From Archivesica marissinica (taxonomy: Eukaryota > Mollusca > Bivalvia > Venerida > Vesicomyidae): 64,000 nucleotides of DNA. The notes under the pieces are model-generated. The model was not told the DNA's origin. It made no database searches and was given only the letters and a program-made list of their open reading frames with translations. The translations under genes were made by a program, and so were the position numbers. The stretch is from the NCBI GenBank assembly GCA_014843695.1, contig CM026390.1:55125294-55189293 (forward strand), given 5' to 3'. Positions 13,101 to 64,000 of this stretch are shown one piece after another (positions within the stretch are counted from its first letter, which is position 1; each line of letters begins with the position of its first letter).

Positions 13101-16100
13101 TCGTGTGGGAGGAAGTCGGAGTACCCGGAGAAAACACACCTGTCCAATTTGGCAACCACTCTACCATCTCTCATCCCAGTATGAGGATCAAACCCAGGTT
13201 GCATGGGTTAGTGAGGGCACTAACCGGAGAGCCAACTGTATGCTGGATGTTGCTATAAATGCTATCGATGGTGAAGAAATAAACAAACATGCAAATGCTC
13301 GAATCGCCCGCTAGATCAATTATTGGTGTTTTAAATGCACATCTGTTATAAAAAAAATAATTGCGGTAATAAAATGATTTTGTTTGGTAGTTACTACAGC
13401 TATTGATCTAGACAGTGCTACTAGTAATGTATTTTCAATTCAGCTCTGCAAACAAATTTGTATTGCGCTCCTTGCTTGCAGACACGAATCTCGTGAAGAT
13501 ATGAACTTGTGGAGATGGAATTTAGTGGTGGTTTGAGTCTCGAGGAGTAATCAGTCTGATGAATGTTTGAGACCCGTTGGGGTTAGAGTCTTGCAGATAT
13601 TTGAGTCTATGTAGTGGTACAGCTACCCCGATTGTATCCCAGTTCTCAGGACTACACCAACCGATCAAACTACTACAGCATTGCTGCCTAAACACACAAG
13701 CCACTGTACAACTACTACAGCATTGCTGCCTAAACACACAAGCCACTGTACAACTACTACAGCATTGCTGCCTAAACACACAAGCCACTGTACAACTACT
13801 ACAGCATTGCTGCCTAAACACACAAGCCACTGTACAACTACTACAGCATTGCTGCCTAAACACACAAGCCACTGTACAACTACTACAGCATTGCTGCCTA
13901 AACACACAAGCCACTGTACAACTACTACAGCATTGCTGCCTAAACACACAAGCCACTGTACAACTACTACAGCATTGCTGCCTAAACACACAAGCCACTG
14001 TACAACTACTACAGCATTGCTGCCTAAACACACAAGCCACTGTACAACTACTACAGCATTGCTGCCTAAACACACAAGCCACTGTACAACTACTACAGAT
14101 GAAAATGCATCAAAAAGTTCAAACTCACCAAATCCTTTCATAGCTTTTCTCAGAACCTTTGCATCATTTTCTGCACTGAAATTCATTGATGATTTCAAAG
14201 TGGCGTCTTCCTACAAAACAGTAATGGACATCATTCAAATACTGGAACCTCTTGTGTTCAAATGTCAATAAAATCTTATTGCTACCTTTGTCAAAACTTG
14301 CTAGGAAAATAAGAAGCCATAATCTAATAGTATAAGTTTAAACGTATTTATTTTACAACGATTGCGAAGCAAGTTTCAACAACATAGAGACAGATCATAC
14401 GGCAGCGAATGTTGGTTTTGGGAGGTTACATTATACCTGTCAGTTTGTTTGTTTTGGGACCTCTCATAGGGAATGAGACAGCAGGGCGTTCATTTGACTC
14501 AAGTTCCAGGGTTTTGACGCATGAAAATCAGACGCTTGTTTGACTCTTGGTGAAAATGCGTAGTGGGTCAACTTTGACCCGGGACAATGAGTGGTCAAGT
14601 GTCATCGAACATTTTCTCAACCGTGTAATTATCATAATCTGCCTGTCAAATGCGATCGGAGAGGGTGGAGTCCGTTTAAAAAATAAACGCTGTAACTCCG
14701 ACTTCGGCCAATGAACGAAGATGTCTGTAAAATTTGCCAACAACCATAAGCCTAGATATATTCTCGTAAAGTTGGAGCCAAATTTACATGAAAATACGAC
14801 TTTTCTGCTGATTTAATGAATATTTTTTAAAAGGACATGCTTTTATCTTATTGTTGATACCAAAATCATTTTCTGGAACAAACTATAAGCTACCCGCATT
14901 TTGTTTTTAAATCTGTGACTCTAAGCACGTCCATTTTAAATATACTGATGACGGGGCTATCGCAAATTATACATCGCCAAAAACTTCTTTGTAGCCCAAA
15001 AAAATCATTTAATTTACGAGTTTATTTCAATTCGTAACTAAATATATTTTATGAAAATCACGTCTTTTCATATTATTTCCGATTCGACCCAGTTTGGGAA
15101 CAGCTGATCAAAAATCTTTAACTCGCCATAATACATGTAACTCGGGTTACTGACTCTAGTCTAGTGAACGCCCTGAGACAGCACGACTGAACTGGTTGGT
15201 AACGTGTACAACTGGACTGATATCGGATGTATATACTCACCCTAGTGAATGGTTGGTTGGTAACGTGTACAACTGTACTGATATCGGATGTATATACTCA
15301 CCCTAGTGAATGGTTGGTAACGTGTACAACTGTACTGATATCGGATGTATGTACTCACCCTAGTGAATGGTTGGTTGGTAACGTGTATAACTGGACTGAT
15401 ATCGGATGTATATACTCACCCTAGTGAATGGTTGGTAACGTGTACAACTGTACTGATATCGGATGTATGTACTCACCCTAGTGAATGGTTGGTTGGTAAC
15501 GTGTACAACTGTATTGATATCGGATGTATATACTCACCCTAGTGAATGGTTGGTTGGTAACGTGTACAACTGTACTGATATCGGATGTATGTACCACCCA
15601 AAAACGTGTACAACTGTACTGATATCGGATGTATGTACTCACCCTAGTGAATGGTTGGTTGGTAACGTGTACAACTGTATTGATATCGGATGTATATACT
15701 CACCCTAGTGAATGGTTGGTTGGTAACGTGTACAACTGTACTGATATCGGATGTATGTACTCACCCTAGTGAATGGTTGGTTGGTAACGTGTACAACTGT
15801 ACTGATATCGGATGTATGTACTCACCCTAGTGAATGGTTGGTTGGTAACGTGTACAACTGTATTGATATCGGATGTATATACTCACCCTAGTGAATGGTT
15901 GGTTGGTAACGTGTATAACTGGACTGATATCGGATGTATGTACTCACCCTAGTGAATGGTTGGTTGGTAACGTGTATAACTGGACTGATATCGGATGTAT
16001 GTACTCACCCTAACTTTGTATCCTGTATGTGAACCACCCTGTCCCATTGCCTGTACATTATGTCCTTGACTAACATTTCCGGCATAGGCCATGCCCCCTG

Positions 16101-43794: not shown

Positions 43795-46725
43795 GCTGAA
43801 TTAACGATGTGGTAACGGTTATACTGAATTAACGATGTGGTAACGGTTATACTGAATTAACGATGTGGTAACAGTTATACTGAATTAACGATGTAGTAAC
43901 GGTTATGCTGAATTAACGATGTGGTAACGGTTATGCTGAATTAACGATGTGGTAACGGTTATACTGAATTAACGATGTAGTAACGGTTATGCTGAATTAA
44001 CGATGTCGTAATGGTTATGCTGAATGAACGATGTCGTAATGGTTATGCTGAATTAACGATGTAGCAACGGTTATGCTGAATAAACGATGTAGTAACGGTT
44101 ATGCTGAATGAACAATGTAGTAACGGTTATACTGAATGAACGATGTCGTAATGGTTATTCTGAATTAACGATGTAGTAACGGTTATGCTGAATGAACGAT
44201 GTAGTAATGGTTATGCTGAATGAACGATATAGTAACGGTTATGCTGAATGAACGATATAGTAACGGTTGTGCTGAATTAACGATGTAGTAACGGTTATAC
44301 TGAATTAACGATATAGTAACGGTTATACTGAATTAACGATATAGTAACGGTTATACTGAATTAACAATATAGTAACGATTATACTGAATTAACGATATAG
44401 TAACGGTTATACTGAATTAACGATGTAGCAACGGTTGTGCTGAATTAACGATATAGTAACGGTTATACTGAATTAACGATGTAGCAACGGTTATACTGAA
44501 TTAACGATATAGTAACGGTTATACGGAATTAACGGCGTAGTAACGGTTGCTATGCTGAATTAACGATGTAGTAACGGTTATAATGAAATAACGATGTAGT
44601 AACGGTTATGCTGAATTAACGATATAGTAACGGTTATGCTGAATGAATGATGTCATAATGGTTATACTGAATGAACGATGTCGTAATGGTTATGCTGAAT
44701 TAACGATGTAGTAACGGTTATGCTGAATGAACGATGTAGTAACGGTTAAACTGAATGAACGATGTCGGAATGGTTATTCTGAATTAACGATGTATTAACG
44801 GTTATGCTGAATGAACGATATAGTAACGGTTATGCTGAATGAACGATATAGTAACGGTTGTGCTGAATTAACGATGTAGTAACGGTTATGCTGAATGAAC
44901 GCTGTAGTAACGGTTATACAGAATTAACGATATCGTATCGGTTATGCTGAATTAACGATGTAGTAACGGTTATGCTGAGTGAACGATGTAGTAACGGTTA
45001 TACTGAATGAACGATGTAATAATGGTTATGCTGAATGAACGATGTAGTAACGGTTATGCTGAATGAACGATGTAGTAACGGTATACTGAATTAACGATGT
45101 GTAACGGTTATACTGAATTAACGATATAGTAACGGTTATACTGAATTAACGATATAGTAACGGTTATACTGAATTAACGACGTAGTAACGGTTATACTGA
45201 ATTAACGATATAGTAACGGTATACGGAATTAACGATATAGTAACGGTTATACTGAATGAACGATGTTGTAACGGTTATACTGAATTAACGATATAATAAC
45301 GGTTATACTGAATTAACGATGTAGTAACGGTTATGCTGAATTAACGATGTGTAACGGTTATACTGACTTATCGATGTAGTAACGGTTATGCTGAATTAAC
45401 GATGTGTAACGGTTATACTGACTTATCGATGTAGTAACGGTTATGCTGAATTAACGATGTGTAACGGTTATACTGACTTATCGATGTAGTAACGGTTATG
45501 CTGAATTAACGATGTGTAACGGTTATACTGACTTATCGATGTAGTAACGGTTATGCTGAATTAACGATGTGTAACGGTTATACTGACTTATCGATGTAGT
45601 AACGGTTATGCTGAATTAACGATGTGTAACGGTTATACTGACTTATCGATGTAGTAACGGTTATGCTGAATTAACGATGTGTAACGGTTATACTGACTTA
45701 TCGATGTAGTAACGGTTATGCTGAATTAACGATGTGTAACGGTTATACTGACTTATCGATGTAGTAACGGTTATGCTGAATTAACGATGTGTAACGGTTA
45801 TACTGAATTATCGATGTAGCAACGGATATGCTGAATTAACGATGTAGTAACGGTTATACTGAATTAACGATATAGTAACGGTTATACGGAATTAACGATA
45901 TAGTAACGGTTATACGGAATTAACGATATAGTAACGGTTATACTGACTTATCGATGCAGTAACGGATATGCTGAATTAACGATGTAATAACGGCTATCCT
46001 GAATGAACGATGTAGTAACGGCTATACGGAATTAACGATGTAGCAACGGTTGTGCTGAATTAACGATGTAGTAACGGTTATACTGAATTAACGATGTAGC
46101 AACGGTTATACTGAATTAACGATATAGTAACGGTTATACTGAATTAACGACGTAGTAACGGTTGCTATGCTGAATTAACTATGTAGTAACGGTTGTTATA
46201 CTGACTTTATCGATGTATCAACGGTTATACTGAATTAACGATGTAGTAATGGTTGCTATGCTGAATAAACGATGTAGTAACGGTTGCTATGCTGAATTAA
46301 CGATGTAGTAACGGTTGCTATGCTGAATAAACGATATAGTAGCGGTTATGCAGAGTTATCGATGTAGTAACGGTTGCTATGCTGAATTAACGACGTAGTA
46401 ACGGTTGCTATGCTGAATTAACGATGTAGTAACGGTTGCTATGCTGAATTAACTATGAGTAACGGTTGTTATACTGACTTATCGATGTATCAACGGTTAT
46501 ACTGAATTAACGATGTAGTAACGGTTGCTATGCTGAATAAACGATGTAGTAACGGTTGCTATGCTGAATAAACGATGTAGTAACGTTTGCTATGCTGAAT
46601 TAGCGATGTAGTAACGGTTGCTATGCTGAATTAACTATGTAGTAACGGTTGTTATACTGACTTATCGATGTATCAACGGTTATACTGAATTAACGACGTA
46701 GCAACGGTTATACTGAATGAACGCA
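43795..46725. repeat. 28-bp satellite with 55-bp dimer block
   Basis: About 104 units of ggttatactgaattaacgat plus gtagtaac, with 27-bp and 31-bp (ggttgctatgctg) forms. At about 45337-45790 a dimer of 27 + 28 bp (tgctgaattaacgatgtgta, then actgacttatcgatgtagta) is repeated eight times with almost no change. The right edge abuts the broken 3' end of a LINE. Confidence 0.95.
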
Positions 46726-46779
46726 TGTTCATGAATTCAATGTTTTTAAAAGATATTGAAAGAAATGCAATGGTAGGAT

Positions 46780-47456
46780 TTATATAGAATAGTTGAAGGA
46801 ATTTTGCATAGATATATAGATTTCTAGAAAACACCAGTGGTAAGTCATTAATAAAAAGTAAGAATAAAAGTGGTCCTAATATTGAGCCCTGTGGGACTCC
46901 ATAAGTAACCGTTTTGTTTTCAGATAAAACGTCATTTATAGAAACAGCTTGGTTTCTATCACATAGATATGATTGAAAAGGCTTCAGGGTAGTGTTGTTG
47001 ATCTATAAAAAAAGTCTGGAATGATTTATGCACGTGTCTTTCAAAACTGTTCGACAAAGTTGGTAAAATTGAAATAGGTCTATAATTATTTACGTCATTA
47101 TTTTTTTCACCTTTGAATAATGTTTTTTTGACATTTGCAAATTTTAAAGCTTCTGGGAAAATTGATGTTTGCAAACTCTGATTTATTATAACAGTTACAT
47201 GTTTTACAATGATATCAGCGGATTGTTGTAACCGTTTTGGTCCAATATTATCGAATCCTGTAGCCTTAGAAACATTAAGTTTGAACAATTCCTTTCTGGT
47301 ACTATTCTTTGTAACTTCGGGTATTTCAAACATTACATCATCAGGTACATGTTCATTAATAAAATCGTGAATATAGTCAAAGCTTAAGTAATCAGGGACT
47401 GTATCGTTGATGTTGGATGCAACAGTGATAAAGAATTCACTAAATATATTTTCCAT
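46780..47456 (-). pseudogene. LINE reverse transcriptase, internally deleted
   Basis: The N-terminal part reads ENIFSEFF, then KATGFDNIGPK and NNYRPISILPTLS, the usual start of a LINE polymerase. The frame then jumps to LKPFQSYLCDRNQAVS and YGVPQGSILGPLLF plus INDLP. The stretch between, which should carry the first catalytic Asp motif (FLDLxKAFD type), is missing, and the YxDD box is not recognisable before the homology ends. The enzyme cannot be functional. Confidence 0.87.
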
Positions 47457-47829
47457 TTCAACATTTTGAGGGTAATCAGTTCCTTGATGGCATATTGAGT
47501 TAATATTGTTTCCAGATTACGTTGATTTCCCTGTACCAAACTCTTCAAAATCTTCCAAAGACAGTACGAGGGTTACCTTTACCAGACTCGAGTTTTCTTT
47601 CACATGACTCTTTCCTTGCTGTATTAATCATTGCTGACACTTTGTTTCTTAGTAGTTTATATGTATTGATTAGCCCTTGCTCTGATTTATCGTGTTACAT
47701 GTTATCGCGTTCTGTCATAATATTAAGTATTTCTGTTGTTAATCAATCTGGTCGAAATTTCCTTTTCACTCTCTTGAGTTTTTATTGGAACATGCCTATG
47801 TACAATTTCTAAAAACAGTTTACACCACA

Positions 47830-48807
47830 TATTTAATATTTCAGTTGTATCATCATATATATATATATATATATATAAACAAAGGTCCAGTCTACAAGAC
47901 GTAAATCTTCACAAAAGTGCTGCTCATTGAAGTTTTTAAATGATCTGTATGATATTGTTTCATGCATACTTTTATTATTTGAAGTTGACGATACGATTGC
48001 AGAATACTGGGTAATGATCACTGATAGAAAGCTTTGGTACATAAATTATTTTTCCATGTATGTCCATAATCATTACATCATTTGTCCATCCTCATCATGA
48101 TTGCATATATCATAATATTGTACTATATATATTGTAAATATGTTTAAATGTTACAGACGAGAAACTGTAAAGTTTAAGTCTTAATAAAGCATTCTTCTTC
48201 TTCTTCTTCTTCATAAATATTGACAATGGCATGTTAGTATATATGTGATCAATCAATGATGAAGGTTATCTAGTTACTCTAGTAGGTTCCATTACTAACT
48301 GTATAAGACCTAGTGGGATATAAATATGTGTCCATTCATCATTTGTATAACAATCAGTGAGGTTTTTATTGAGATCACCTAATCAAATTAGTTCGTTATC
48401 TTCATAGAACACATTTTCGATAAACAATTCAAATCTGTCTTTCCACTCTATTTTAGAGTGAGAATGCCTATACATATTGCAAGCAAAATATGGTTTACAA
48501 TATTTACAATATATTTCAAGAATAACAACCTCAATATCATGCGTTTCTAAATCATAACGGCGTTTGACATTTAGACCATCTTTAACATATACTAAAATTC
48601 CCCCACCACCATCTCTGTCATTTTGGTCTCTACGAAATGGAGGTAAAACTCCTTTAATTAAATATGCATTTGTATTTACATCAACTTTAAATTTAAACTC
48701 AGCCCCATAATATCAATTTTATTATTGTCAGAGGTCATAAGTAGCTTTACTTCTTCAAATGTATCTAAACTATTAAGACCGTGAACATTTAAATGACCAA
48801 TAGTCAT
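47830..48807 (-). pseudogene. LINE endonuclease domain
   Basis: The frame opens at 48807 with MTIGHLNVHGLNS, followed after a frameshift by DRDGGGGILVYVKDGL, WKDRFELFIEN and LGDLNKNLTD (the GDxN box, with a TGA two residues before it). Next come IDHIYTN and, after the inserted retroposon, SISDHYPVF (the SDHxPV box) in another frame, then KNFNEQHFCEDLRLVDW. These are apurinic endonuclease landmarks of LINEs. At least two frame changes and several stops mark it as dead. Confidence 0.85.
48047..48211 (+). mobile_element. Short retroposon inserted in the LINE
   Basis: A 165-bp plus-strand piece ending in ttaataaagc and a (ttc)n run, flanked by a 7-bp duplication cataaat at 48040-48046 and 48212-48218. 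Removing it rejoins LINE endonuclease sequence. A microsatellite-like 3' end with AATAAA suggests a truncated LINE or SINE tail. The family is not identified. Confidence 0.68.
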
Positions 48808-48923
48808 GCCATTTTATGCAGACCGAGGTCTGTGGTATCATTTATAATATCATAAATGCTGTTGATCGAATCAGTTTGATCAGCTAAACTAATTTCTAAA
48901 GCATTACAATACAGTTGGATAAT

Positions 48924-49770
48924 TCACATTGTGAACATTGTTTGCAAACGATTAAATCTGTTGGATGTAGTGACGTCAAAGTCCTTGCCAGACACGTTAG
49001 CATTGGCAACATGGCCTGATTTATATTGCTGGTAGCAATTTATGGACTTGTGGCCAAAACGGTCACGGTTAAAACACCTTCCCGAGAATCTCCACTGAAA
49101 TTGACTATGCATATCCCCAGACTGATTTTGATTATTCCACGTCGATTTGTATCTGCCGGTTTCACTGGTACGATAGTTGTTATTCCCATGTTCAAGCGAT
49201 GTTCTTTCTTCGTGGTACAAATACACACCAATTAAAGTCCGCACATACCTGAGTGAAGTTATTTATTGTACCCAATATTCTTTTTATACCAGATCGGGAT
49301 AGATGGATGCTATCCTTAAAGTTAAAGAAGTAATTGATTGGAGTGCCATCCTTATCACTGAAAACGTGGCACATGTCTATGCAACTTACATAAGCTTCTG
49401 GTGTGCAAGTTCTTCAATACAGGCATTGAACTCGAACAGGTCTACATCTCCGCGATGACAAAAGAGTACATACTACAACAGCCATTTGCGGATTACTGAT
49501 TTTTAAGCTTTCTAACAGGATCATATATTTCTCCTTGAACACTTGACAAGACATACCCCTAGCTACATCATTATCATTACCCCCTATGTAGATGATAGTC
49601 GTGCTAAAACTTGATAAATCATACAGTAATATATCATCTGCTATGTCATCAATGCGAGCGCCACTTATTGAATGTTTATGCGTTCCTTGTGTAAGTCCTT
49701 GTTGGTTAATACAATGAGGTATAGAAGATCCAATTATAAGTGTCTTAGATCTCGTAGCATTATGCGTACA
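48924..49770 (-). pseudogene. LINE ORF1: SGNH esterase and CCHC-like knuckle
   Basis: In minus-strand order: KTLIIGSSIPHC (nucleophile block, GSS in place of GDS), YIGGNDND (GGND block), then KDSIHLSRSGIKR (DxxH block), which are the landmarks of SGNH hydrolases. Downstream at about 49015-49072 is a knuckle C-x2-R-x4-H-x4-C in which the second Cys is Arg (CGT for TGT), followed by a weaker C-x2-Q-x4-H-x4-N. Frameshifts separate the blocks. The role is probably RNA and membrane or protein interaction of the ORF1 product, by analogy with CR1-type elements. Confidence 0.78.
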
Positions 49771-50094
49771 TTTTCCCGGTCTGATTTCTTGCCTATTGTG
49801 TACAGAGTAGTTTGATTATTTATATGTTTAATGTAAACATTTTGCCTGTTTCCTTGAATTGTCTCAATGTTGTATAGTGGTTTGGTATGCTTCATGAACG
49901 ACCATCAATGCACGATTTGTACATGGTCATTTAAAGATGAATCTTAATATTATGTAAATAACTCTTGTAATTTAATAGAATTAGTAAACCTATAATTAGA
50001 TATGTCCGACACGATTCTTTCACTTCATCAGGTTATACATGTACACTGAACATTACATGGCATAGCACCATGTTCTATATGATTAGTGACAGTT

Positions 50095-51998: not shown

Positions 51999-52465
51999 CA
52001 GACTTTCAGTAATATTTAGAAGATCTACCAACACATCCAACATTAATCTGTTTTTTCCCCCTCTAAATTATTGCTAAATTATATTTTCTGACAATTACCC
52101 TCCTTTTATGAGGTATTTACAAAATCACCCACAGCTTGTAATTTGATTGTTAATGTTAACATTAGAAATAAATGTACATATACATTATAGTTCTATATTT
52201 ACATGTGAAGAATAACACGTAAAATATCGTTTAAAATGTCATATAACCATGCTTAAAGTCAAGAACGTATATCCTCCAACCATATTAACCATTACTTATA
52301 ATTATAATGCTTTCCTTGTGAACATAAAATACTGCAGTTTAACTTGTGCCATTCATGCAGCACAGATAGATAAATCAGTTTAGCTGCCCACAACACAATA
52401 ATTACAACATAAAATAGACAGTTAGTGACGGCAAACCGCTTAAGTAACTCAATTGTCCTCTCATT

Positions 52466-53091
52466 TTACAATATCTGCATTGCCGACAGGTCGTCCGGAT
52501 CAACAATATCCGGAATATGAAACGGAGCATCAGACCATTTGCTCAGCATAATGGTGTTGTTCGTCTCTGTATCCATCACACGAAGGAACTTGTAAGAGAG
52601 AAACGGTAACCTGACACCTTTGTATGTGGATACTATTCCAAGTTGGTGTGTACAGCTATTTCCGCCTGCTCCAAACAACATTGCCTGGCAATTAATGGCC
52701 TCATCAAATGTACGTGGTTGCTTTGGAAACGGCTTTGTTGATACGCTTGCCCAGATGGCTGGTTGGACAATCACGTAATGTTGGCTTTTTATGCATCGCA
52801 ATGCCCCACAATTTACCTCAAATTTGCCACATTTTCCGCAGATCATTTTGTATTTACTATTGTCAAGTTTTGGAACTTTTTTTGCAACGTTTCCTTGCTC
52901 GTTCCGTTCATTCTGCACAATTGTGTTCTGTTCTTTGCGGATAAAATCCCGAACATCGTCTTCTTGCATGCTTAGTATGATTTCCAACGCCTGATCCATC
53001 AGGTAACCTCTATGTATGTTTAAACTCTCTCTCAGCGTACCTTTGTGGTCAGAAATGACAGTATATGTGCCTTCCATTTTCCGAATTCGTC
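52466..53091 (-). CDS. RIG-I-like exon: motif VI end, C-terminal domain
   Basis: The acceptor is ttaattcag and the stop is TAA at 52466-52468. The first residues complete helicase motif VI (RQTKG of the previous exon, then RIRK here). A helical stretch follows (RESLNIHRGYLMDQALEIIL), probably the arm between helicase and C-terminal domain. The RNA-binding domain begins at KMICGKCGKF (first zinc pair, C-x2-C). It continues QHYVIVQ, FGAGGNSCTHQLGIVSTYKG, then LPFLSYKFLRV and LSKWSDAPFHIPDI near the end. The Cys that normally lies five residues before the one in NSCTH is Gly or Gly/Ala here; the nearest other Cys is in INCQAM. Confidence 0.93.
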
Positions 53092-56000
53092 CTGAATTAA
53101 AAACGTTTATATTTTTATTATGCTTCGAAAATCTGTACACATTTAATCATTCAAACAAATAAAGAACATGAAAGGGCTATAAACGCTCTGGGTCACCTGA
53201 GTTCGTGCATTCGTTTTAAAACTACTAGATAAATCAAATTTATTTAATATTATTTTAACAGGTTTCATATTGAACTATAATAGTTGCAACACAGTAATCC
53301 CTAGACGTATCCACATAAACTACATTGGTATCTTTATGTCTAATGGTATAGGAACTATAGCGCAGACACGCGTTTACTGATGGGTGTGGTATAGGCTGTA
53401 AACTTAAAAGATTACATCACCTCTATTTTGGTATACGACAATGCTATATTTAGATTCATCCACATGCCAATTAGTTTGGTATCTGAATGTCTTTAAGCTT
53501 ATTGTTCGGACACGAATCTATCTCGGAAAGACATACCAACAGGTGGTTACTACTGTGGGGTCAATTATGACATCATCATCATCAGCATCATCATCTAAGC
53601 AAGATTAGTAATGGTCCATTAGATGACATAGGACATGCACAATATCAAAGCTCTCGACATTATGGTTTAACAAGAGGTTTTTACTATGTAAGTCAATATA
53701 ACTGTTGTGAACCCTACAGTGGGATGAAGTATGACTCCATTATACTAAATTGAGAAATAATTAGTAGAGGTCCATCATATCTGTAATTATACAGGCCAAA
53801 CGTCAAAGATATGTGCATTGCGGTTTATGATAGGCCACCTATCAAAGATATGTGCATTGTGGTTTATGATAGGCCACCTATCAAAGATATGTGCATTGTG
53901 GTTTATGATAGGCCACCTATCAAAGATATGTGCATTGTGGTTTATGATAGGCCACCTATCAAAGATATGTGCATTGTGGTTTATGATAGGCCACCTATCA
54001 AAGATATGTGCATTGTGGTTTATGAAGAAGATTGTTAATGATTTACTATATAATTATATTGTAAATATACCACCACCACCACCAACAACAACAACAACGA
54101 CAACAATTACTTATATTAGTGTCAGGTTACATAATTATATAACAACATGACTAATTAAGCTTTATGATATTGTGGGTATAGATATACATATATGATATTT
54201 CTATATATATCTGGGGACCAGACAGTTCGCAGTGAAAATGACACGCAGTGCACAAACTTCATGTTTTAGGTGTTCCTACGTGGAGAAAACCGAAAACCGT
54301 CGTACAGACGTGTCTAGATTTATAGTGACCATTGATAATTATGTATGCACATGGGTCATAGCTGATGGAATTCCATTCATATTTCAATGTGTGTATATAG
54401 GAGCATCTGTACTAATTTGGAACTCCCCACTCATTGTCAATCATGTTTTAGATGAATCGACTCTGTCCAGCAAACTTTAGAATCTAACATAATGTGCTAC
54501 AGACACAATCACATTCGTGACAGTAACATTTGGAAATTTGGCAAATATTAGACCTAGTACCCTTGTTTGAAGACATAGTGACATAATATGAACATTCTGG
54601 AAAGAGAATCAGCCAATGGGCATTGCTATGAAGGTTCAGGATAATTGAACAAGTGGTTCAGGAAGAGATGTCGCTTGAAGCAAATTGTTGTTTATGCCGG
54701 ATGCCGGACACAGTGAGATCACAAAACCTTGAACACTTTGTGCTCAGGTAAAATAATACCTATACACGTACTGTGTTATGCATTATATATATAGATAGAT
54801 AGATAGATAGTTTATTCTGAACAAAAAGCAAATGCTCATGAGTTCATTATAACATTGGCATTACAATACTTGGTCAATGGTGTATAGTTCAATCACAAAT
54901 TCAACATTCAGTACATGCACATTTTGAAAGCATAATATCGAATTAAACTACATAGTGGTTACACATGATCAAATTGAATTCAAATAATTGTATAATATAG
55001 TGCAATGATCTGCAACCTGAAAGAGAAAATACATATATATATATATGACAGCTATACCCTTAGTCTGGCGTGTAGAGATTTCATTGACGATATGGTTGTA
55101 TTATGCATTATATATATATGACAGCTATACCCTTAGTCTGGCGTGTGGAGATTTCATTGACGATATGGTTGTATTATGCATTATATATATATGACAGCTA
55201 TACCCTTAGTCTGGCGTGTAGAGATTTCATTGACGATATGGTTGTATTATGCATTATATATATATGACAGCTATACCCTTAGTCTGGCGTGTGGAGATTT
55301 CATTGACGATATGGTTGTATTATGCATTATATATATATGACAGCTATACCCTTAGTCTGGCGTGTAGAGATTTCATTGACGATATGGTTGTATTATGCAT
55401 TATATATATATGACAGCTATACCCTTAGTCTGGCGTGTGGAGATTTCATTGCCGATATGGTTGTGTTATGCATTATATATATATGAGAGTTATACCCTTA
55501 GTCTGGCGTGTGGAGATTTCATTGCCGATATGGTTGTATTTAATGACAAAGTTGCAGTCATGTATATCTAATCCTTCTTCCAGAATGGTCGTTGCGATCA
55601 GTCCCTGTATTTTTCCTTCTCCGAATTGCTTCACAACGTCTTCTTGGTCACGCCTGCTTGTTCCTGTAAGACATATGATTCCGTTCAGTATATATTCAAA
55701 ATACCATCGCCGTTGTAGGTTCGAATCCCACTGGAACATTCTTTCAAGTTAGGAAGCTATCAAGCTTGCTTGCGGTAGGTCGGTGGTTCTATCCGGTGGT
55801 CCATCAGTTCGTGAACTACTGCTTGGACGTCTTCCTCCACAAATAATAGCTGAACAGTCGCCATATGATCTAAGCTGTTGGTGTTACATTAAACACCCAA
55901 AACAAACAGGATTCCAAATAATTATGTAGGTGCGCATTTTTAACAAATTAACTAGTGTTCTAAATACATACAGCATCTGAACATAATCTTAAATTTACAA

Positions 56001-59000
56001 CATATAAATGTATGCATATTTAGCTTATTCTGATTGTGAAATGTGTGTTTAATTGCTCTTGAGACTTAATTCATCGCCATGATGTGAAAACAATCAACTA
56101 TCAATTAAAGTGTATTGTATAAGGACATCACTGCCGTGGTTCTGGCCTCACAGATGGATATGTAGTCCAGTGGTAACACGCTGGACTGGTAATCCAGGGA
56201 TCGCAGGTTCGATCCCCCGTCTGACCCTAATAAAATTAACAGTCTTTCAGATGGGACGTTAAACCGAGGTCTCGTGTCGGTGCTTTACACCGTGCACGTA
56301 AAAGAACCAGAGGAGATTCTGGAATGGGTCTCTGTCTGTATCATGCACTATCCTCCAAAATCTAAAATAACAAATCTCTTCAGGAGGCGTCGCTCATATG
56401 GGCAACCGGTAGCGACGATAAATAAACGTAAAACACAGGTTCTGGCCTCACATTATCTATGTTACGAAGCGGACCGTGACAGTATGCACATTAAACATAT
56501 TACGTGAAACAAGTTACCTCCAACATCAGATGTAGCATTAGAGCCCGTGAACACAGCACACTTGTATCCTTCCGCTTGCAGTATCTCTGTCAGCATTTCG
56601 GCCTGATCGCGTGTCTTTATATACACTATGAATCTAACTCCATCTTTACCCTCACTAGCGCGATGCTTCAAAGTTTCTAGAAGCTTCTTGATTCGTACTC
56701 CTCTCTGTGCAAAGGTGCATATGTTAGCCATTTCGGACACCAGCTCTGTAGATAGGAATGTAATATTTCATACTTAAAGTTCATATACTTTATAACTATT
56801 GTATTATATAAATGGAAGTCGTGATAGCGCAGTGGATGCGCGTTCGCTGCAAGTGCGAATGTTCCGGAGTTCGAGCGCCGCTGGAGTCGTTACGATTGTG
56901 CCCTTATGCAAGGCCGTTAAATTGCACATTGCCTCTTCTCTCTCCCTTGTGGTGATGGATTCCATCAGGAATGAGGTCTCGAGAGTGATTAATATAAGTT
57001 GTAAAAACTTGTTTCGCAATTGAGCAAAAATAAATTTGTATAAACTAACTATTGTATTAATTACATAGTAGCAACGCTACGTTTATATACTATTTATAGA
57101 TCATTTATACACTTATATATTGTATAGTGTGACTGTGCTGATTATTTCCTGACTTCATATATCGATAAGCCAGCATCAGAACTAGTGTGATGATACGCAT
57201 TACACTAGCCTAGGTAATGCTAGGAGTTCAAATATTCATGCACCAAGAAGTGGCCAGCCAGGTAATGCTAGGAGTTCAAATATTCATAAACCAACAAGTG
57301 GCCAGTCAGGTAATGCTATGCGTTCAAATATTCATGCACCAAGAAGTGGCCAGCCAGGTAATGCTAGGAGTTCAAATATTCATGCACCAAGAAGTGGCCA
57401 GCCAGGTAATGCTAGGAGTTCAAATATTCATGCACCAAGAAGTGGCCAGCCAGGTAATGGCAGCATAAATAATCAGTACTTTATTTATAAAAATGGAGAG
57501 TTGTGGAATTTATGTAGCTCAATGTGTGTTTTACATTTGATCGTGTTATATTCCTGACATTTATGCAGCTCAATGTGTGTTTTACATTTCATCGTGTTAT
57601 ATTCCTGACATGTATGCAGCTCAATGTGTGTTTTACATTTCATCATGTTATATTCCTGACATGTATGCAGCTCAATGTGTGTTTTATATTTCATCGTGTT
57701 ATATTCCTGACATGTATGCAGCTCAATGTATGTTTTACATTTCATCGTGTTATATTCCTGACATTTATATAGCATTTTCACAAGAACATTTACAGACATT
57801 GTTTTCCTTCATGCAATCTGTTGTTACTTTGGTGTGACATTTGACAGTAATCACAAACATATTTCTTAGAAGATACATGGAAACTGGTTTTTAAAATTAA
57901 TTTGGCTGTTGAAATGCTTCTCAGAGGTATAGGATAATCGTCTCCGTAGTCTAGTCGTTAAGGGGTCCTCCTACGGATCGCGAGGTCGAACGTTCGAACC
58001 TCGTCAGGGGTTTGTTCTGATATGGCCGTTGGTGAACCGCCATCCCGTTGGTGAACCGCCATCTAGTTAAATACTGATTACCGATTGCCTATCAGCCTGG
58101 CCCTACAAGCATAGGATTCGGGAAGTATTGATGTTCGTAAAAAGAGCTGTCTTATAAGTCAGAAATGTCTGGGTGGCACTATAGTGGTGACACTATAATA
58201 AACAAACACTTTACTTTATATTTGATTTAAAATGGAACAGACTGTGTGACCACTGTGCCAATAGTGTTGATTACATATAGTGTAAAGAATGATTCATATT
58301 TATATCTCTAACATCTACTAAGCATTACTTAAGCTACACAATTTATTTAAAATAAAAACATTCATGGAAACAGTGTTTACCCTTTGCGAGTTGACAAAGT
58401 TGCAGCTCTGATTCGACCTGGGACTGAGAATAACTGCCCAGTTGTTGAGTAGCCAGCTTCTTTGCTAACACTTTACTAGCACAGTGGTTGGTGAGATCAT
58501 CGTTCACATCAAGTACCTCGCTGTAAATCTAGGGTTCAGAGAAAAACAATGCTTCGATGGTGAGATGTGTTGACGATGATAGCCTACGAGAACTATATGT
58601 TTATATCACAATCATGCAGTTAAACAATTGCATACACATGGAACTCGGTGACGTTACCTTGGTCGGCTGCATCGTCACCTTGATCGGCTTCATCGTTACC
58701 TTGGTCGGCTTCATAACATATTTAAGTTTCATCTTAGCCTTTGGATTGGTTATCTGAATTCACTATATACAATAATGATATTCACGTTTGTCGGGAATTG
58801 ATAGTAAATAACAAGTTAAGCTAGTTTGTGAAACTTGTCTATGGTTGATTAACAGTGCAGTTAGCTTGTGAAGCTTGTCTATGGTTGATTAACAGTGCAG
58901 TTAGCTTGTGAAACTTGTATATGGTTGATTAACATTGCAGTTAGCTTGTGAAGCTTGTCTATGGTTGATTAACAGTGCAGTTAGCTTGTGAAACTTGTCT

Positions 59001-61868
59001 ATGGTTGATTAACAGTGCAGTTAGTCTAAACATATTTTATTTCCCAATATAATACATATTGAACAATTTCCTCCGAGATAATCCTAACTGTGAATGTGGC
59101 AAAGGTATCGAAGATCCTGAGCACTACTTTTTTTAATGCAACACATACAGTACGGAACGCATACATATGTTCAGAAACACTCGCAGATTTCATCCAATAA
59201 GTACTAATAAGCTTTTATTTGGAATCGAATATTTGTCTAATACAGAAAATAATAAACTATGTTTAGAGGTTCACAAATTTATTAAAGAAACTCGACGATT
59301 CGCATAATATAAATTATTTGTCCTTTTGTTTTTGTTTTACCTGGTAACCATGGAATGGGGCGGAACTAACCACGGGGTTTGGGGTACATGTACTATATCT
59401 CTTTGTTTTTCATTCTTGATACCTCATTGAACTTCTTTTCTTTTTTTCAATTCATTTTTGTTAATATTCCTAATATGTTATAATAGTTAACAAATATTTA
59501 TCACGAAGTTTAATTGTATATATCTGGCATTTTTCTACATCAAATCATACATAACAGAAATTGTTCATCCAGCATTGTTAATTTAGTTTGAAGTGATGGG
59601 AAGGGCTGTAAATAATGTTGTCATAACTTGTAGCCCAACCCATTTGCTTTTTTCCCCAGATTAAATAGTATACAGCAATAATAATAACTCCTAATATAAT
59701 TTCATATCGTTTTTCTACGTACAGTCAAACCTTTGTTAGTGGTCACCTCCATTAAGCAGCCAATCTGTGTTAAGCAGCCAGTTTTCAGATTCCAAATCAG
59801 TTGTTTTATTATATATTTGACCTCTATTAAGCAGCCACCTGTGCTAAGCAGCTTAAGACAGGTTTGACTGTATTTCATTGTGTGTATAATTGTAATGTAT
59901 GAAAAAAATGTAATACAATATTATTTAAAAAATCACAGTTACCATGGGTACAAAATGCAAAATAAATAAACCTTCAAATAACTGGCAGCAATGATGACTC
60001 TATTTGCTATGGAGGGCCGTTTCCTAAGTAGAGATGTTGCCTTATTAGACAATTCGCCTGTCCATGTGATGTACTGAGGGTCGTTCCTTTTCATTGATTC
60101 CTTCTTCTTCAAAACAGACGCAAGCTCAACTTCATCCGTATCATGATTACCCAAGTCATCTATAATTAGTTTTATTTAAACATATTGTATTGCATATGTA
60201 CTCCATTAGACAATAACACAAATTTACATACATGCAGGAATCAGAATAGTTAGCACATTATAGACACATACATACATGTGTCGGTAACATAGCAAACTCG
60301 TCGGTAACATAGCAAACTCGTCTGTAACATAGCATATTCGTCAGTAACATAGCAAACTCGTCAGTAACATAGCAAACTCGTCGGTAACATAGCAAACTCG
60401 TCAATAACATAGCAAACTCGTCGGTCCACAAGTTAAAATGAGTAAATAAATAAGCGATAAAACTATGAAACAATGTTTAACAATATAGTGCTGTTAAAAA
60501 ACTGCATTGTATGCAGTGATCAGTTTTTATGGAAGTCGTCATAGCGCAGTGGTAGCTCGTTCGCTACAGGTGCGAAATGCCTGGAGCCGTTACAATTGAG
60601 CCCTTATGCAAGGCATCAGAATTCCACGCGGAATCTTCTCTCGAGATCTATCTGATGTAGTAAGATTCCATCAGGTCTCGAAAGTGATTAATATAAGTTG
60701 TAAGAACTCGAGCAATCGAGCTAAACTAAATTTGAATAAACTAAGCCAGTTTGCCCCCAATATTATTAAACATGCTAAAGGTTTTGGACATACATTAATT
60801 ACATTGCTGTTATGCTTTGTTACGGAGAATTGGAGATACGTAGAGTCTAATGAAGCAATACTCACTTAGTCACAATAAGATTATATATTTGGAGCTACGT
60901 AGCGTCTAATGAAGCAAGACTCACTTAGTCACATAAGATTATATATTTGGAGCTACGTGGAGTCTAATGAAGCAAGACTCACTTAGTCACACTAAGATTA
61001 TATAATAGGAGCTACGTGGAGTCTAATGAAGCAAGACTCACTTAGTCACAATAAGATTATATATTTGGAGCTACGTAGAGTCTAATGAAGCAAGACTCAC
61101 TTAGTCACAATAAGATTCTATATTTTTCAACAATGTTCAAGTAAATTAAAAATGTTAAAATATGATGGATTTCTTTAATGAAAACCTTGTACTACTGATT
61201 TTGTAATGAATATTAATTGTATGATAGAAACTATTTTGGAAATTGTGACAATACCCTTGAACAGGAATATATCTTTCTACATCCTCTGTTGTTTCACACA
61301 TGCGCGCTGTGCGTGTTTACATTTCGTGTGTTGATAAACAAATTCGCGTATACGACGGTTTAAATTTATTGGAATTTTATCGTTTCTGAGCGACTATTTC
61401 GATTTTTGTAAACACACACACACACCTTTGTATTTATATTTTACCCAAAACATCCTTTATTACGATGTAATGCTGCTTTAACTAATGGATAATGAAGTCA
61501 TTGCATCGTTTTAAGGGCCTCATGGTAGATTAACTTTTGTTAAATGAGTACTCTCGTTAAATAAAGTCTTTATTATTATTATTATTATTTTATACCGTAA
61601 TCCCCACGTACATTTTAATGTTCGCAATGCAATGTAATCTCATTTCTTGAACCAACTATTATAAAGGGCAATGGGGTGACATATTTAAAATAATAAAACC
61701 ATACCTCAAAATCTTGTGATGTGAGGATAATCAGTAAGTCTATTAATAATTGTCTACATCTAGGCTAACCTTGAGTGGTACGTGCAAAGCGTTCAGTCAG
61801 TATCATGTATTTTACTATGCACTGGTGTACAGCGTCATCACTTCCTGACTCTTGTAGGACTATCCGCT
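52466..61868 (-). CDS. RIG-I-like receptor gene, last six exons
   Basis: Gene-level entry; exons follow separately. RIG-I-like receptors are cytosolic sensors of double-stranded or 5'-triphosphate RNA: a superfamily 2 helicase with a helical insertion and a C-terminal RNA-binding domain. The window covers 1457 coding nt (two bases plus 485 codons including TAA) in phases that all join. From the insertion domain (61770-61868, 59972-60159, 58381-58528) it runs through the second helicase domain (56518-56745, 55496-55663) to motif VI and the C-terminal domain (52466-53091). The first helicase domain and any CARDs lie beyond base 64000, so I cannot say whether it signals through CARDs (RIG-I or MDA5 type) or is LGP2-like. 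Dicer is excluded by the RIG-I-type C-terminal domain and the stop after it. Confidence 0.92.
53092..53802. other. Intron, no feature recognised
   Basis: Last intron of the RIG-I-like gene. Apart from a short tca-rich microsatellite at about 53570-53596 I see no structure. Confidence 0.55.
53803..54027. repeat. 39-bp minisatellite, six units
   Basis: Units of atgtgcattgtggtttatga plus taggccacctatcaaagat; only the first carries a change (cggttt). It is followed by a cca/caa microsatellite at 54062-54106. Confidence 0.94.
54110..55029. other. Intron; possible LINE 3' end
   Basis: Part of the last RIG-I-like intron. At 54786-54830 a (gata)n run followed by gtttattctgaacaaaaagc looks like the 3' end of a minus-strand LINE. 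An 82-codon plus-strand frame at 54232-54480 has no family pattern and is antisense within an intron. Confidence 0.4.
55030..55496. repeat. 73-bp array made of exon end plus donor
   Basis: Six intronic units of 73 bp plus the authentic exon end as the seventh. On the minus strand each unit contains about 44 nt of exon sequence (AATACAACCATATCG to CGCCAGACTAAGG), then GTATAG and about 29 nt of intron ending in a TA-rich run. Alternate units differ by ctacacgcc or ccacacgcc. The authentic donor is GTATAA. Confidence 0.94.
55496..55663 (-). CDS. RIG-I-like exon: helicase motif V, 168 bp
   Basis: Acceptor tgtcttacag, donor GTATAA. It encodes TSRRDQEDVVKQFGEGKIQ, then LIATTILEEGLDI (motif V) and NEISTRQTKG, the first half of motif VI; the Gly codon is split with the last exon, giving QTKGRIR. 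These motifs form part of the RNA- and ATP-contacting face of the second helicase domain. The final 44 nt are repeated six times in the following intron. Confidence 0.94.
55700..55912 (+). mobile_element. SINE family G
   Basis: Plus-strand copy with a box B-like aggttcgaatccc, then gcggtaggtcggtggttcta and atctaagctgttggtgttac. The head is partly missing and it starts about 35 bp from the acceptor of the 168-bp exon. An imperfect duplication (attcaaaata, attccaaata) may mark its target site. Confidence 0.75.
56153..56437 (+). mobile_element. SINE family C, full length
   Basis: Plus-strand copy with the tRNA-like head (tgtagtccagtggtaacacg, ggactGGTaatcc, box B aggttcgatcc), body and tail gcgacgataaataaacgtaa. 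A perfect 15-bp target duplication, ggttctggcctcaca, lies at 56138-56152 and 56438-56452. The anticodon-like triplet GGT against TGT in the 34.1-kb copy would both read as Thr. Confidence 0.93.
56518..56745 (-). CDS. RIG-I-like exon: helicase domain 2 start, 228 bp
   Basis: Acceptor cctatctacag, donor GTAACT. It encodes LVSEMANICTFAQRG, IKKLLETLKHRASEGKDGVR and FIVYIKTRDQAEMLTEILQ to VFTGSNATSDVG. RFIVYIKTRDQAEML is helicase motif IV and VFTGS is the following conserved strand. The last codon is split and completes as Gly with the 168-bp exon. Confidence 0.94.
56807..57045 (+). mobile_element. SINE family A, full length
   Basis: Head gtgatagcgcagtggatgcg with box B gttcgagcgcc, body ggattccatcaggaatgagg, tail agtgattaatataagttgta. 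A perfect 14-bp target duplication, taactattgtatta, lies at 56793-56806 and 57046-57059. This is the reference copy for family A and lies in a RIG-I-like intron, antisense to it. Confidence 0.94.
57209..57458. repeat. 48-bp minisatellite, five units
   Basis: Units of ggtaatgctaggagttcaaa plus tattcatgcaccaagaagtg and gccagcca; the second unit is the most divergent. It lies in an intron of the RIG-I-like gene. Confidence 0.93.
57505..57770. repeat. 51-bp minisatellite, five units
   Basis: Units of catttcatcgtgttatattc plus ctgacatgtatgcagctcaa and tgtgtgtttta. It follows the 48-bp array after about 50 bp. The 51-bp period keeps minus frames open (17-residue period). Confidence 0.93.
57941..58200 (+). 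mobile_element. SINE family D
   Basis: The tRNA-like head has box A (cgtagtctagtcgttaaggg) and box B (cgttcgaacctcg). The body contains a perfect 18-bp tandem pair, gttggtgaaccgccatc with a spacer, then ctatcagcctggccctacaa. Only one copy is in the window and no target duplication was recognised, so its ends are approximate. Confidence 0.7.
58381..58528 (-). CDS. RIG-I-like exon: helical insertion, 148 bp
   Basis: It encodes IYSEVLDVNDDLTNHCASKV, then LAKKLATQQLGSYSQSQVES and ELQLCQLAKG, a helical segment of the insertion in helicase domain 2. Two acceptors lie eight bases apart: ccctag (used here) and tttacag. Only ccctag joins in phase with the preceding exon, giving AASYLK then IYSEVL. 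The donor is GTAAAC. Confidence 0.87.
58815..59018. repeat. 40-bp minisatellite, five units
   Basis: Units of tagcttgtgaagcttgtcta plus tggttgattaacagtgcagt, with aaactt or aagctt and one aacattgcag variant. Confidence 0.93.
59045..59420 (+). mobile_element. LINE 3' end fragment
   Basis: In the frame from 59062 to 59307 it reads NNFLRDNPNCECGKGIEDPE, HYFF, an in-frame TAA, CNTYSTERIHMF and HKFIKETRRFA then stop. The pattern C-x-C-G ... HYFF-x-C is typical of the C-terminus of ORF2 in jockey/CR1-like LINEs. A 3' untranslated stretch (accatggaatggggcggaac, acggggtttggggtacatgt) follows. It is 5'-truncated and dead, and sits in a RIG-I-like intron. Confidence 0.78.
59722..59870. mobile_element. 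TA-flanked MITE, 149 bp (pogo/Tigger-like)
   Basis: Ends CAGTCAAACCT and AGGTTTGACTG are perfect complements, with TA outside (59720-59721 and 59871-59872). Both halves carry the repeated motif attaagcagccac or gttaagcagcc typical of Tigger-like termini. No coding capacity. It is distinct in sequence from the 30.9-kb MITE but has the same type of ends. Confidence 0.9.
59972..60159 (-). CDS. RIG-I-like exon: helical insertion, 188 bp
   Basis: Acceptor aattatag, donor GTTTAT (weak after an AAG). It encodes DLGNHDTDEVELASVLKKKE, then RNDPQYITWTGELSNK and PSIANRVIIAASYLK. The pattern of short helices with WTGEL matches the insertion domain that grips RNA in RIG-I-like receptors; this part is poorly conserved and was placed by phase and neighbours. 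It starts with two bases that complete an Asp codon. Confidence 0.87.
60283..60426. repeat. 20-bp minisatellite, seven units
   Basis: Units of gtaacatagcaaactcgtcg with agcatattcgtc, gtcagtaac and gtcaataac variants. It lies about 120 bp before the acceptor of the 188-bp exon. Confidence 0.92.
60527..60746 (+). mobile_element. SINE family A
   Basis: Head gtcatagcgcagtggtagct, shortened middle with a deletion around box B, tail agtgattaatataagttgta. A 6-bp target duplication, cagttt, lies at 60521-60526 and 60747-60752. Confidence 0.82.
60829..61118. repeat. 58/59-bp minisatellite, five units
   Basis: Units of gagctacgtagagtctaatg plus aagcaagactcacttagtca and caataagattatatatttg. One unit has ataatagg in place of atatttgg. 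Confidence 0.92.
61119..61769. other. Intron; possible retroposon tail
   Basis: AT-rich RIG-I-like intron. At about 61530-61592 a tail-like sequence, gttaaataaagtctttatta with (att)n, could be the 3' end of an unidentified retroposon. A short (ca)n run lies at 61411-61425. Confidence 0.45.
61770..61868 (-). CDS. RIG-I-like exon: insertion start, 99 bp
   Basis: Acceptor attgtcttcag, donor GTTAGC. It encodes RIVLQESGSDDAVHQCIVKY, then MILTERFARTTQ; the last base completes Asp with the next exon. It is the most 5' exon I can support. The placement rests on phase, splice sites and a helical, charged composition like the neighbouring exons, since this region is weakly conserved in the family. Confidence 0.7.
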
Positions 61869-61984
61869 CTGAAGACAATACAATACATGCCTTAGACATA
61901 AATGGAAAGTATACGGGTATAATAATACCAACACAAATATGCTGTAATATGTATAACACTGGATACTGGAGTATATGGATCCGT

Positions 61985-64000
61985 ATATATCCGAGTATTC
62001 GGTAGTGTACGGAGTCAGTATATCCGAGTATTCGGTAGTGTACGGAGTAAGTATATCCGAGTATTCGGTAGTGTAGGGAGTCAGTATATCCGAGTATTCG
62101 GTAGTGTACGGAGTCAGTATATCCGAGTATTTGGTAGTGTACGGAGTCAGTATATCTGAGTATTCGGTAGTGTACGGGGTCAGTATATCGGAGTATTTGG
62201 CAGCATACGGATCCCTTGTATCCGAGCATTCAGTAGTGTATGGAACCCGTAAATCGGAGTATTCGCACAGGGTAATGTAAGATGTACGTATATCCTAGTA
62301 TTCACACATGGTAGTGTATGGTGTACGTATATCCCAGGATTCACACATGGTAGTGTATGGTGTACGTATATCCCAGTATTCACACAGGGTAGTGTATGGT
62401 GTACGTATATCCCAGTATTCCCACAGGATAGTGTATGGTGTACGTATATCCCAGTATTCGCACAGGGTAGTGTATGGTGTACGTATATCCCAGTATTCCC
62501 ACAGGATAGTGTATGGTGTACGTATATCCCAGTATTCGCACATGGTAGTGTATGGTGTACGTATATCCCAGTATTCGCACAGAGTAGTGTATGGTGTACG
62601 TATATATCCCAGTATTCACACAGGGTAGTGTATGGTGTACGTATATCCCAGTATTCCCACAGGGTAGTGTATGGTGTACGTATATCCCAGTATTCCCACA
62701 GGGTAGTGTATGGTGTATGTATATCCCAGTATTCACACAGGGTAGTGTATGGTGTACGTATATCCCAGTATTCGCACAGGGTCGTGTATGGTGTACGTAT
62801 ATCCCAATATTCGCACAGGGTAGTGTATGGTGTACGTATATCCCAGTATTCACACAGGGTAGTGTATGGTGTACGTATATCCCAGTATTCACACAGGGTA
62901 GTGTATGGTGTACGTATATCCCAGTATTCGCACAGGGTAGTGTATGGTGTACGTATATCCCAGTATTCACACAGGGTAGTGTATGGTGTACGTATATCCC
63001 AGTATTGCACAGGGTAGTGTATGGTGTACATATATCCCAGTATTCACACAGGGTAGTGTATGGTGTACGTATATCCCAGTATTCACACAGGGTAGTGTAT
63101 GGTGTACGTATATCCCAGTATTCGCACAGGGTCGTGTATGGTGTACGTATATCCCAGTATTCACACAGGGTAGTGTATGGTGTACGTATATCCCAGTATT
63201 CACACAGGGTAGTGTATGGTGTACGTATATCCCAGTATTCGCACAGGGTAGTGTATGGTGTACGTATATCCCAGTATTCCCACAGGGTAGTGTATGGTGT
63301 ACGTATATCCCAGTATTCCCACAGGGTAGTGTATGGTGTACGTATATCCCAGTATACGCACAGGGTCGTGTATGGTGTACGTATATCCTAATATTCGCAC
63401 AGGGTAGTGTATGGTGTACGTATATCCCAGTATTCCCACAGGATAGTGTATGGTGTACGTATATCCCAGTATTCACAAAGGGTAGTGTATGGTGTACGTA
63501 TATCCCAGTATTCGCACAGGGTAGTGTATGGTGTACGTATATCCCAGTATTCACACAGGGTAGTGTATGGTGTACGTATATCCCAGTATTGCACAGGGTA
63601 GTGTATGGTGTACGTATATCCCAGTATTCGCACAGGGTAGTGTATGGTGTACGTATATCCCAGTATTCACACAGGGTAGTGTATGGTGTACGTATATCCC
63701 AGTATTCGCACAGGGTAGTGTATGGTGTACGTATATCCCAGTATTCACACAGGGTAGTGTATGGTGTACGTATATCCCAGTATTCACACATGGTAGTGTA
63801 TGGTGTACGTATATCCCAGTATTCACACAGGGTAGTGTATGGTGTACGTATATCCCAGTATTCGCACATGGTAGTGTATGGTGTACGTATATCCCAGTAT
63901 TCGCACAGGGTAGTGTATGGTGTACGTATATCCCAGTATTCACACAGGGTAGTGTATGGTGTACGTATATCCCAGTATTCACACAGGGTAGTGTATGGTG
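61985..64000. repeat. 33-bp to 39-bp minisatellite, 2 kb to window end
   Basis: It starts with about eight 33-bp units (gtagtgtacggagtcagtat plus atccgagtattcg) at 61985-62260 and then changes to about 44 units of 39 bp (gtagtgtatggtgtacgtat plus atcccagtattcacacagg). The two units align except for six bases, so the long form arose by a small insertion or the short by deletion. The 39-bp units alternate ttcaca, ttcgca and ttccca. It continues past the window. Confidence 0.96.

Follow-up and report, generated by a model that had tools for sequence, protein, structure and literature searches.

The 64,000-nucleotide stretch of DNA analysed here (hereafter the window) comes from the vesicomyid bivalve Archivesica marissinica (GenBank assembly GCA_014843695.1, contig CM026390.1, positions 55,125,294 to 55,189,293) and carries, on the minus strand at ~52.4-60 kb (contig C5), a RIG-I-like receptor gene in which a 73-bp tandem array runs across the boundary between the penultimate exon and the following intron. 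Pfam searches identified Helicase_C (E = 9.6e-11) on the penultimate exon and the C-terminal RIG-I regulatory domain RIG-I_C-RD (E = 2.7e-18) on the last exon, collinear with MDA5/RIG-I; the receptor class was assigned from these two parts, the N-terminal part of the gene lying outside the assembled model. Among 63 protein matches, the closest named relative was an IFIH1-like protein of Ruditapes philippinarum (50% identical), and another protein was 55% identical to the window receptor.

Helicase motif VI of this receptor appears to be split by a phase-1 intron, because the joined protein aligns without a gap at the junction. Joining ACT AAG G|GTATAA at 55496 to ttcag|GA CGA ATT CGG at 53091 gives a spliced product that reads ...QTKG-RIRKMEGTYTV in phase 1, gap-free across the junction against both the IFIH1/MDA5 chain 7jl0_A and the two closest proteins, P0001 (QKTGRIRQQ) and P0002 (QSAGRIRKK). 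On this homology, the GTATAA of the junction is the authentic donor. The features of the window are collected in the table.

Table. Features of the RIG-I-like receptor and annexin genes in the window (TRF, Tandem Repeats Finder).
Feature	Position	Strand	Details
RIG-I-like receptor exon ending within helicase motif VI	55496..55663	-	168 bp, phase 1 at both ends, placed by eye; Helicase_C; IFIH1 alignment
Donor hexamer GTATAA, authentic by homology	55490..55495	-	4.5 bits; six copies GTATAG, 4.3 bits each
Intron splitting motif VI	53092..55495	-	2404 bp, of which 460 bp are the 73-bp array
73-bp tandem array	55036..55540	-	6.9 copies (TRF: 97% matches, score 954); unit 1 over exon end and donor, units 2-7 intronic
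43 nt of coding sequence repeated in the intronic units	55496..55538	-	copies end at 55423, 55350, 55277, 55204, 55131 and 55058; distances +73 to +438
Second array of the motif-VI intron, away from both junctions	53803..54025	-	39 bp x 5.7, TRF
Last exon, coding for the second half of motif VI (RIRK), the linker and the C-terminal RNA-binding domain, with the stop codon	52466..53091	-	RIG-I_C-RD
Companion array in annexin gene, 61-bp unit	15188..16012	-	starts at donor AGG|GTGAGT (exon end 16009); ~4-5 exonic nt in the unit

Read on the minus strand, the array consists of seven units spaced exactly 73 bp apart. Unit 1 comprises the exon end TACAACC...ACTAAGG (55538-55496) followed by GTATAACTCTC, and units 2-7 comprise the same 43 nt with one or two substitutions followed by GTATAGCTGTC, the exon sequence together with a GT being present in all six intronic units. 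A sequence-only reading of this DNA had proposed six intronic units that each carry ~44 nt of motif-VI coding sequence and a GTATAG donor against the authentic GTATAA, and TRF, the reading of the units and homology all agree with it, the repeated coding stretch being 43 nt long. Pairwise differences did not exceed 3/73 among units 2-7 and 1/73 among units 3-7, and reached 15-16/73 between unit 1 and the others in a compared frame that runs partly into unique exon. Units 3-7 differ only by an alternation (CTCT/CTCC/CTCT/CTCC/CTCT), an order that points to duplications of 146-bp dimers as their probable source, and unit 2 is intermediate, with GGC and CTCC in common with the exon unit and GTATAGCTG in common with the other units. 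The array was found in a single place in the 1.54-Gb genome by a search that skips very common words, and a dispersed satellite or transposable element was rejected as its source on these grounds. A chance origin of the repeats was likewise rejected from TRF and the unit comparison, and an 18-mer taken from the middle of exons recurred nearby in only 1 of 94 exons, with three mismatches.

The motif-VI exon was recovered in four of the seven other RIG-I-type loci (L003, L006, L007, and L008), where the match stops at the same residue as in the window gene, before a phase-1 GT; no copy of the last 20 exon nucleotides was found within 800 bp in these four loci (best hit, 9 mismatches). These paralogues thus seem to have the intron in the same place and phase but to lack the array, suggesting that the intron is older than the array, which itself looks local and younger than the intron. 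In addition, six of the eight RIG-I C-terminal domain matches fall in C8:44.9-49.2 Mb, a local expansion of RIG-I-like receptors on a contig different from that of the window gene.

The authentic donor is weak when scored with the matrix of 102 surveyed donors (median 8.2 bits, 5th percentile 4.6). It is also the first in the transcript, all six copies being downstream of it. Reading through it gives ...QTKGITLIYI and a stop within unit 1, and therefore any copied donor would yield the same truncation, in agreement with the earlier proposal that use of a downstream donor would end translation before the end of motif VI. The array is probably harmless.

Arrays of this type are not confined to the receptor. 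The annexin array in the same window, previously described as showing the same pattern, does start at a donor, but it holds so few exonic nucleotides per unit that it is a weaker example than had been implied; both of its genome matches lie inside the annexin array itself, and a dispersed repeat was rejected as its source. Outside the window, TRF revealed donor-crossing arrays begun inside the exon at L017, L021, L050, L064, L092, L096, and L107, though the array in L107 extends just 4 nt into the exon and that in L096 just 11 nt. In L017, L021, L064, and L092, 12 exon nucleotides and the donor are copied exactly farther downstream; L021 (contig 1, annexin), L092 (contig 19, dynein), and L064 (contig 9, myosin) have 4, 5, and 4 such copies, respectively, and are cleaner than the 73-bp array. 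Acceptor-spanning arrays were detected by TRF in L083 (contig 13, dynein; 4 nt into the exon) and L116 (contig 7, dynein). Some copies in L116 keep CAG and others have CAA, and at the acceptor of L097 (contig 2) nearby copies read CCAAAT, compared with CCAGAT at the real site. Moreover, an 18-mer across the junction recurred with at most three mismatches at 7 of 103 donors (L017, L021, L050, L064, L092, L096, and L113), compared with 2 of 100 acceptors (L103 and L116) and the single exon middle mentioned above. Arrays spanning exon-intron boundaries recur in this genome.

The frequency of such arrays was estimated from 30 of 40 Annexin rows, 30 of 74 Myosin_head rows, and 60 of 98 DHC_N2 (dynein) rows, a non-random sample of best-scoring or non-duplicate rows. 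The final survey covered 103 donors and 100 acceptors at 98 loci outside the window (donors/acceptors: annexin 23/24, myosin 23/21, dynein 57/55); an earlier version held 95 donors and 91 acceptors, with 7 and 1 exon-penetrating arrays, respectively, and nine dynein regions were then added. Exon ends were set by eye from the translations of Pfam matches, GT/AG, and homology, and a junction was left out where no placement was possible. Where the donor string recurs (L017, L021, L064, L092, L096, and L113), the copy nearest the exon was treated as the authentic one, as was the exon-proximal acceptor of L103; L013 has a GC donor, and L046, L098, L101, L111, and L114 are less certain. Dropped before the count were L018, L027, and L032, which lie within the window, L037, L053, L054, L056, L059, and L060, which are identical in the printed stretches, L055, which is near-identical to L051, and L070, which has no translation at the expected place; the RIG-I loci L002-L009 were excluded as survey junctions. 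Three places within ~150 kb (C5:40.04, 40.12, and 40.18 Mb; L052-L054 and L058-L060) have myosin head exons that show no difference in the printed stretches, reflecting either a gene duplicated very recently or haplotypes that the assembly did not merge.

Arrays were counted by TRF with a period of 10 or more, and DNA lying 150 bp or more from any annotated exon served as the background. In this flanking DNA of the 98 loci, arrays make up 26% of the sequence and begin once per 1403 and end once per 1323 unique bases. A first density measure, per total base, gave stronger donor P-values (0.04 for the exon side); the density per unique, non-array base was adopted instead as the fairer measure, with weaker P-values. 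Because some annexin loci overlap, part of their flanking sequence enters the background twice; exons in the flanks that lack annotation make the background slightly too low and the apparent excess too large. The flanks of the dynein loci extend only ~380 bp, so arrays with long units were missed there, and the copy of the exon end in L113, 307 bp away, was detected only by the recurrence of the 18-mer.

On the exon side (-64 to 0), 7 of 103 donors were reached by an array, with 4.70 expected (P(at least 7) = 0.20), and 2 of 100 acceptors, with 4.84 expected (P(at most 2) = 0.14; Fisher test against donors, 0.17). At a stricter score cut-off of 120, the figures were 7 donors (3.70 expected, P = 0.08) and 2 acceptors. 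Exon reach at donors thus occurs at about the rate of uniform array birth and is somewhat, though not significantly, rarer at acceptors. An asymmetry between the two, if there is any, may arise because the first-transcribed site is the right one when a donor is duplicated and the wrong one when an acceptor is duplicated.

Based on these results, the 73-bp array is most likely a 'mirage'-type minisatellite that arose by ordinary local tandem duplication in a minisatellite-rich genome, tandem arrays occupying ~58% of the window alone. Since arrays arise very often in this genome, one such duplication could by chance have begun ~43 nt inside the exon and ended inside the intron. The result would be tolerated, since transcription reaches the authentic donor before the copies, which lie within the intron: the spliceosome would use the first donor, the copies would leave with the intron, and selection would hardly see them. 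Unequal exchange or slippage would then homogenise the copies in the intron, and unit 1 would be kept out of this process by selection on its coding sequence. Acceptor-spanning arrays would come from the same birth process.

Two points weigh against this explanation. The splicing step at its centre is a prediction from DNA, and uniform neutral birth fails to predict that array edges crowd around both kinds of junction, where they reach 2.7-3.1 times the expected number within 60 bp. On the intron side (0-60 bp), arrays were counted at 12 of 103 donors (4.40 expected, P = 0.002) and 14 of 100 acceptors (4.53 expected, P = 0.0003; Fisher test against donors, 0.68), and the stricter cut-off left 12 and 11, respectively. 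Array starts 0-10 bp past the exon end were found at 6 of 103 donors (0.73 expected, P = 1.2e-4), and the whole interval from -64 to +60 held 19 arrays at donors, about twofold the expected 9.1 (P = 0.003), and 16 at 100 acceptors, 1.7-fold the expected 9.4 (P = 0.03; Fisher test against donors, 0.71). The crowding of starts and the doubled total at donors are what would be seen if exon-intron junctions were mutational hot spots that seed arrays, for instance where R-loops or breaks form or polymerase pauses at the 5' splice site, the kind of mechanism suggested by the sequence-only reading, and four donor arrays do copy the exon end and donor exactly. As the origin of the 73-bp array, such a hot spot is nevertheless unlikely: the similar crowding of acceptors is not predicted by a donor-specific break or R-loop, and the edges are densest immediately beyond the splice motifs under constraint, as would be expected of arrays that simply run up to constrained sequence. 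The distribution of the edges, within 0-10 bp at donors (2 of 100 acceptors, 0.76 expected) and within 10-60 bp at acceptors (12 of 100, 3.78 expected; donors 6 of 103, 3.67 expected), fits the latter.

Because the crowding is similar at both intron ends, there is no good evidence for nucleation specific to the 5' splice site. That part of the sequence-only reading was rejected, as exon-penetrating arrays at donors did not clearly exceed the intron background and the excess of starts at 0-10 bp is accompanied by comparable crowding of acceptors within 60 bp; the pattern of arrays at donors that it had noticed is real and recurs at several per cent of donors outside the window. A modest hot spot at junctions in general is possible. 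The stronger version, that splice junctions at both intron ends are preferred birthplaces of minisatellites, about twofold over the intron interior and with starts peaking within 10 bp past donors, is rather doubtful; if true, it would couple array birth to transcription or splicing and provide a continual supply of duplicate splice sites for intron sliding, intron gain, and truncated isoforms.

The copied donors could also be functional decoys that yield a regulated truncated receptor, a helicase without its C-terminal RNA-binding domain. The GT is kept in all six copies, whose score is close to that of an authentic donor itself at the weak end of those surveyed, and any copy would give the same protein end. 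However, comparable exact decoys are found in the unrelated genes at L021, L092, and L064, so nothing in them is specific to the receptor, and the four paralogues lack the array. A premature stop upstream of a spliced exon moreover usually leads to removal of the transcript by nonsense-mediated decay, and a decoy function is accordingly regarded as very improbable. Less credible still, and the least so of these alternatives, is an assembly artefact in which a repeat was collapsed or expanded at the junction. Tandem repeats are error-prone in assemblies, and the assembled copy number may be wrong, but the substitutions are ordered among the units (the T/C alternation and the intermediate unit 2), and the same class of structure occurs in other genes and contigs. 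Local tandem duplication by chance, followed by homogenisation of the intronic copies, is thus the preferred explanation.

Other repeats were noted in the window. A 39-bp array extends from 62233 to the window end and continues through the next 10 kb (L010). Open frames at 46673-49815 on the minus strand resemble, by eye, a broken non-LTR (long terminal repeat) retrotransposon; the open reading frame at 46959-47516, the only one of them tested, had no Pfam match. The stretches 56150-56420 and 56812-57030 look by eye like tRNA-derived short interspersed elements, and ARAGORN detected no tRNA gene in 52000-62000. A plasmid search with one repeat led nowhere.

If the survey holds, several per cent of donors have duplicated exon ends, in many cases together with a splice signal that is still intact, and these form a natural experiment on how the spliceosome chooses among near-identical donors. 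In addition, the 'mirage' route by which new introns have been proposed to arise, known in the accessible parts of the literature from a handful of amphioxus genes, would have ample material to draw on.

The amphioxus reports describe 'mirage' minisatellites in the globin genes BflGb6/BflGb9 and in Adh3, with TnC and PGBD5 (imperfect repeats) as further lancelet cases (PMC3902484), regular splicing suggested by reverse-transcription PCR (PMC3087553), and somatic instability. Like these, the 73-bp array spans an exon-intron boundary (exon end 55496), and its units repeat exon sequence together with a splice signal. Concerted evolution with exclusion of the edge unit, which characterises mirages, is seen here in the near-identity of units 2-7 and the divergence of unit 1. 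The present case differs in its bivalve host and in the genes involved, and it comes with a count of how often such arrays occur (7/103 donors, 2/100 acceptors). Intron gain by tandem genomic duplication in the potato RdRp gene reportedly follows an AGGT model. That gain is also a local intragenic tandem duplication bearing on intron structure (PMC4974935), whereas the window intron pre-existed, as four paralogues appear to have it, and no new intron was made. Ordinary intronic minisatellites of the same genome are likewise short-unit arrays, with about one start per 1.4 kb of unique DNA, but unlike the 73-bp array they reach no exon or splice site. No bivalve case was found in the accessible parts of the literature on minisatellites at splice sites or in bivalve introns, and one may exist. 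In summary, the kind of array described here is already known from amphioxus, and the present study adds a bivalve example and a count of its frequency.
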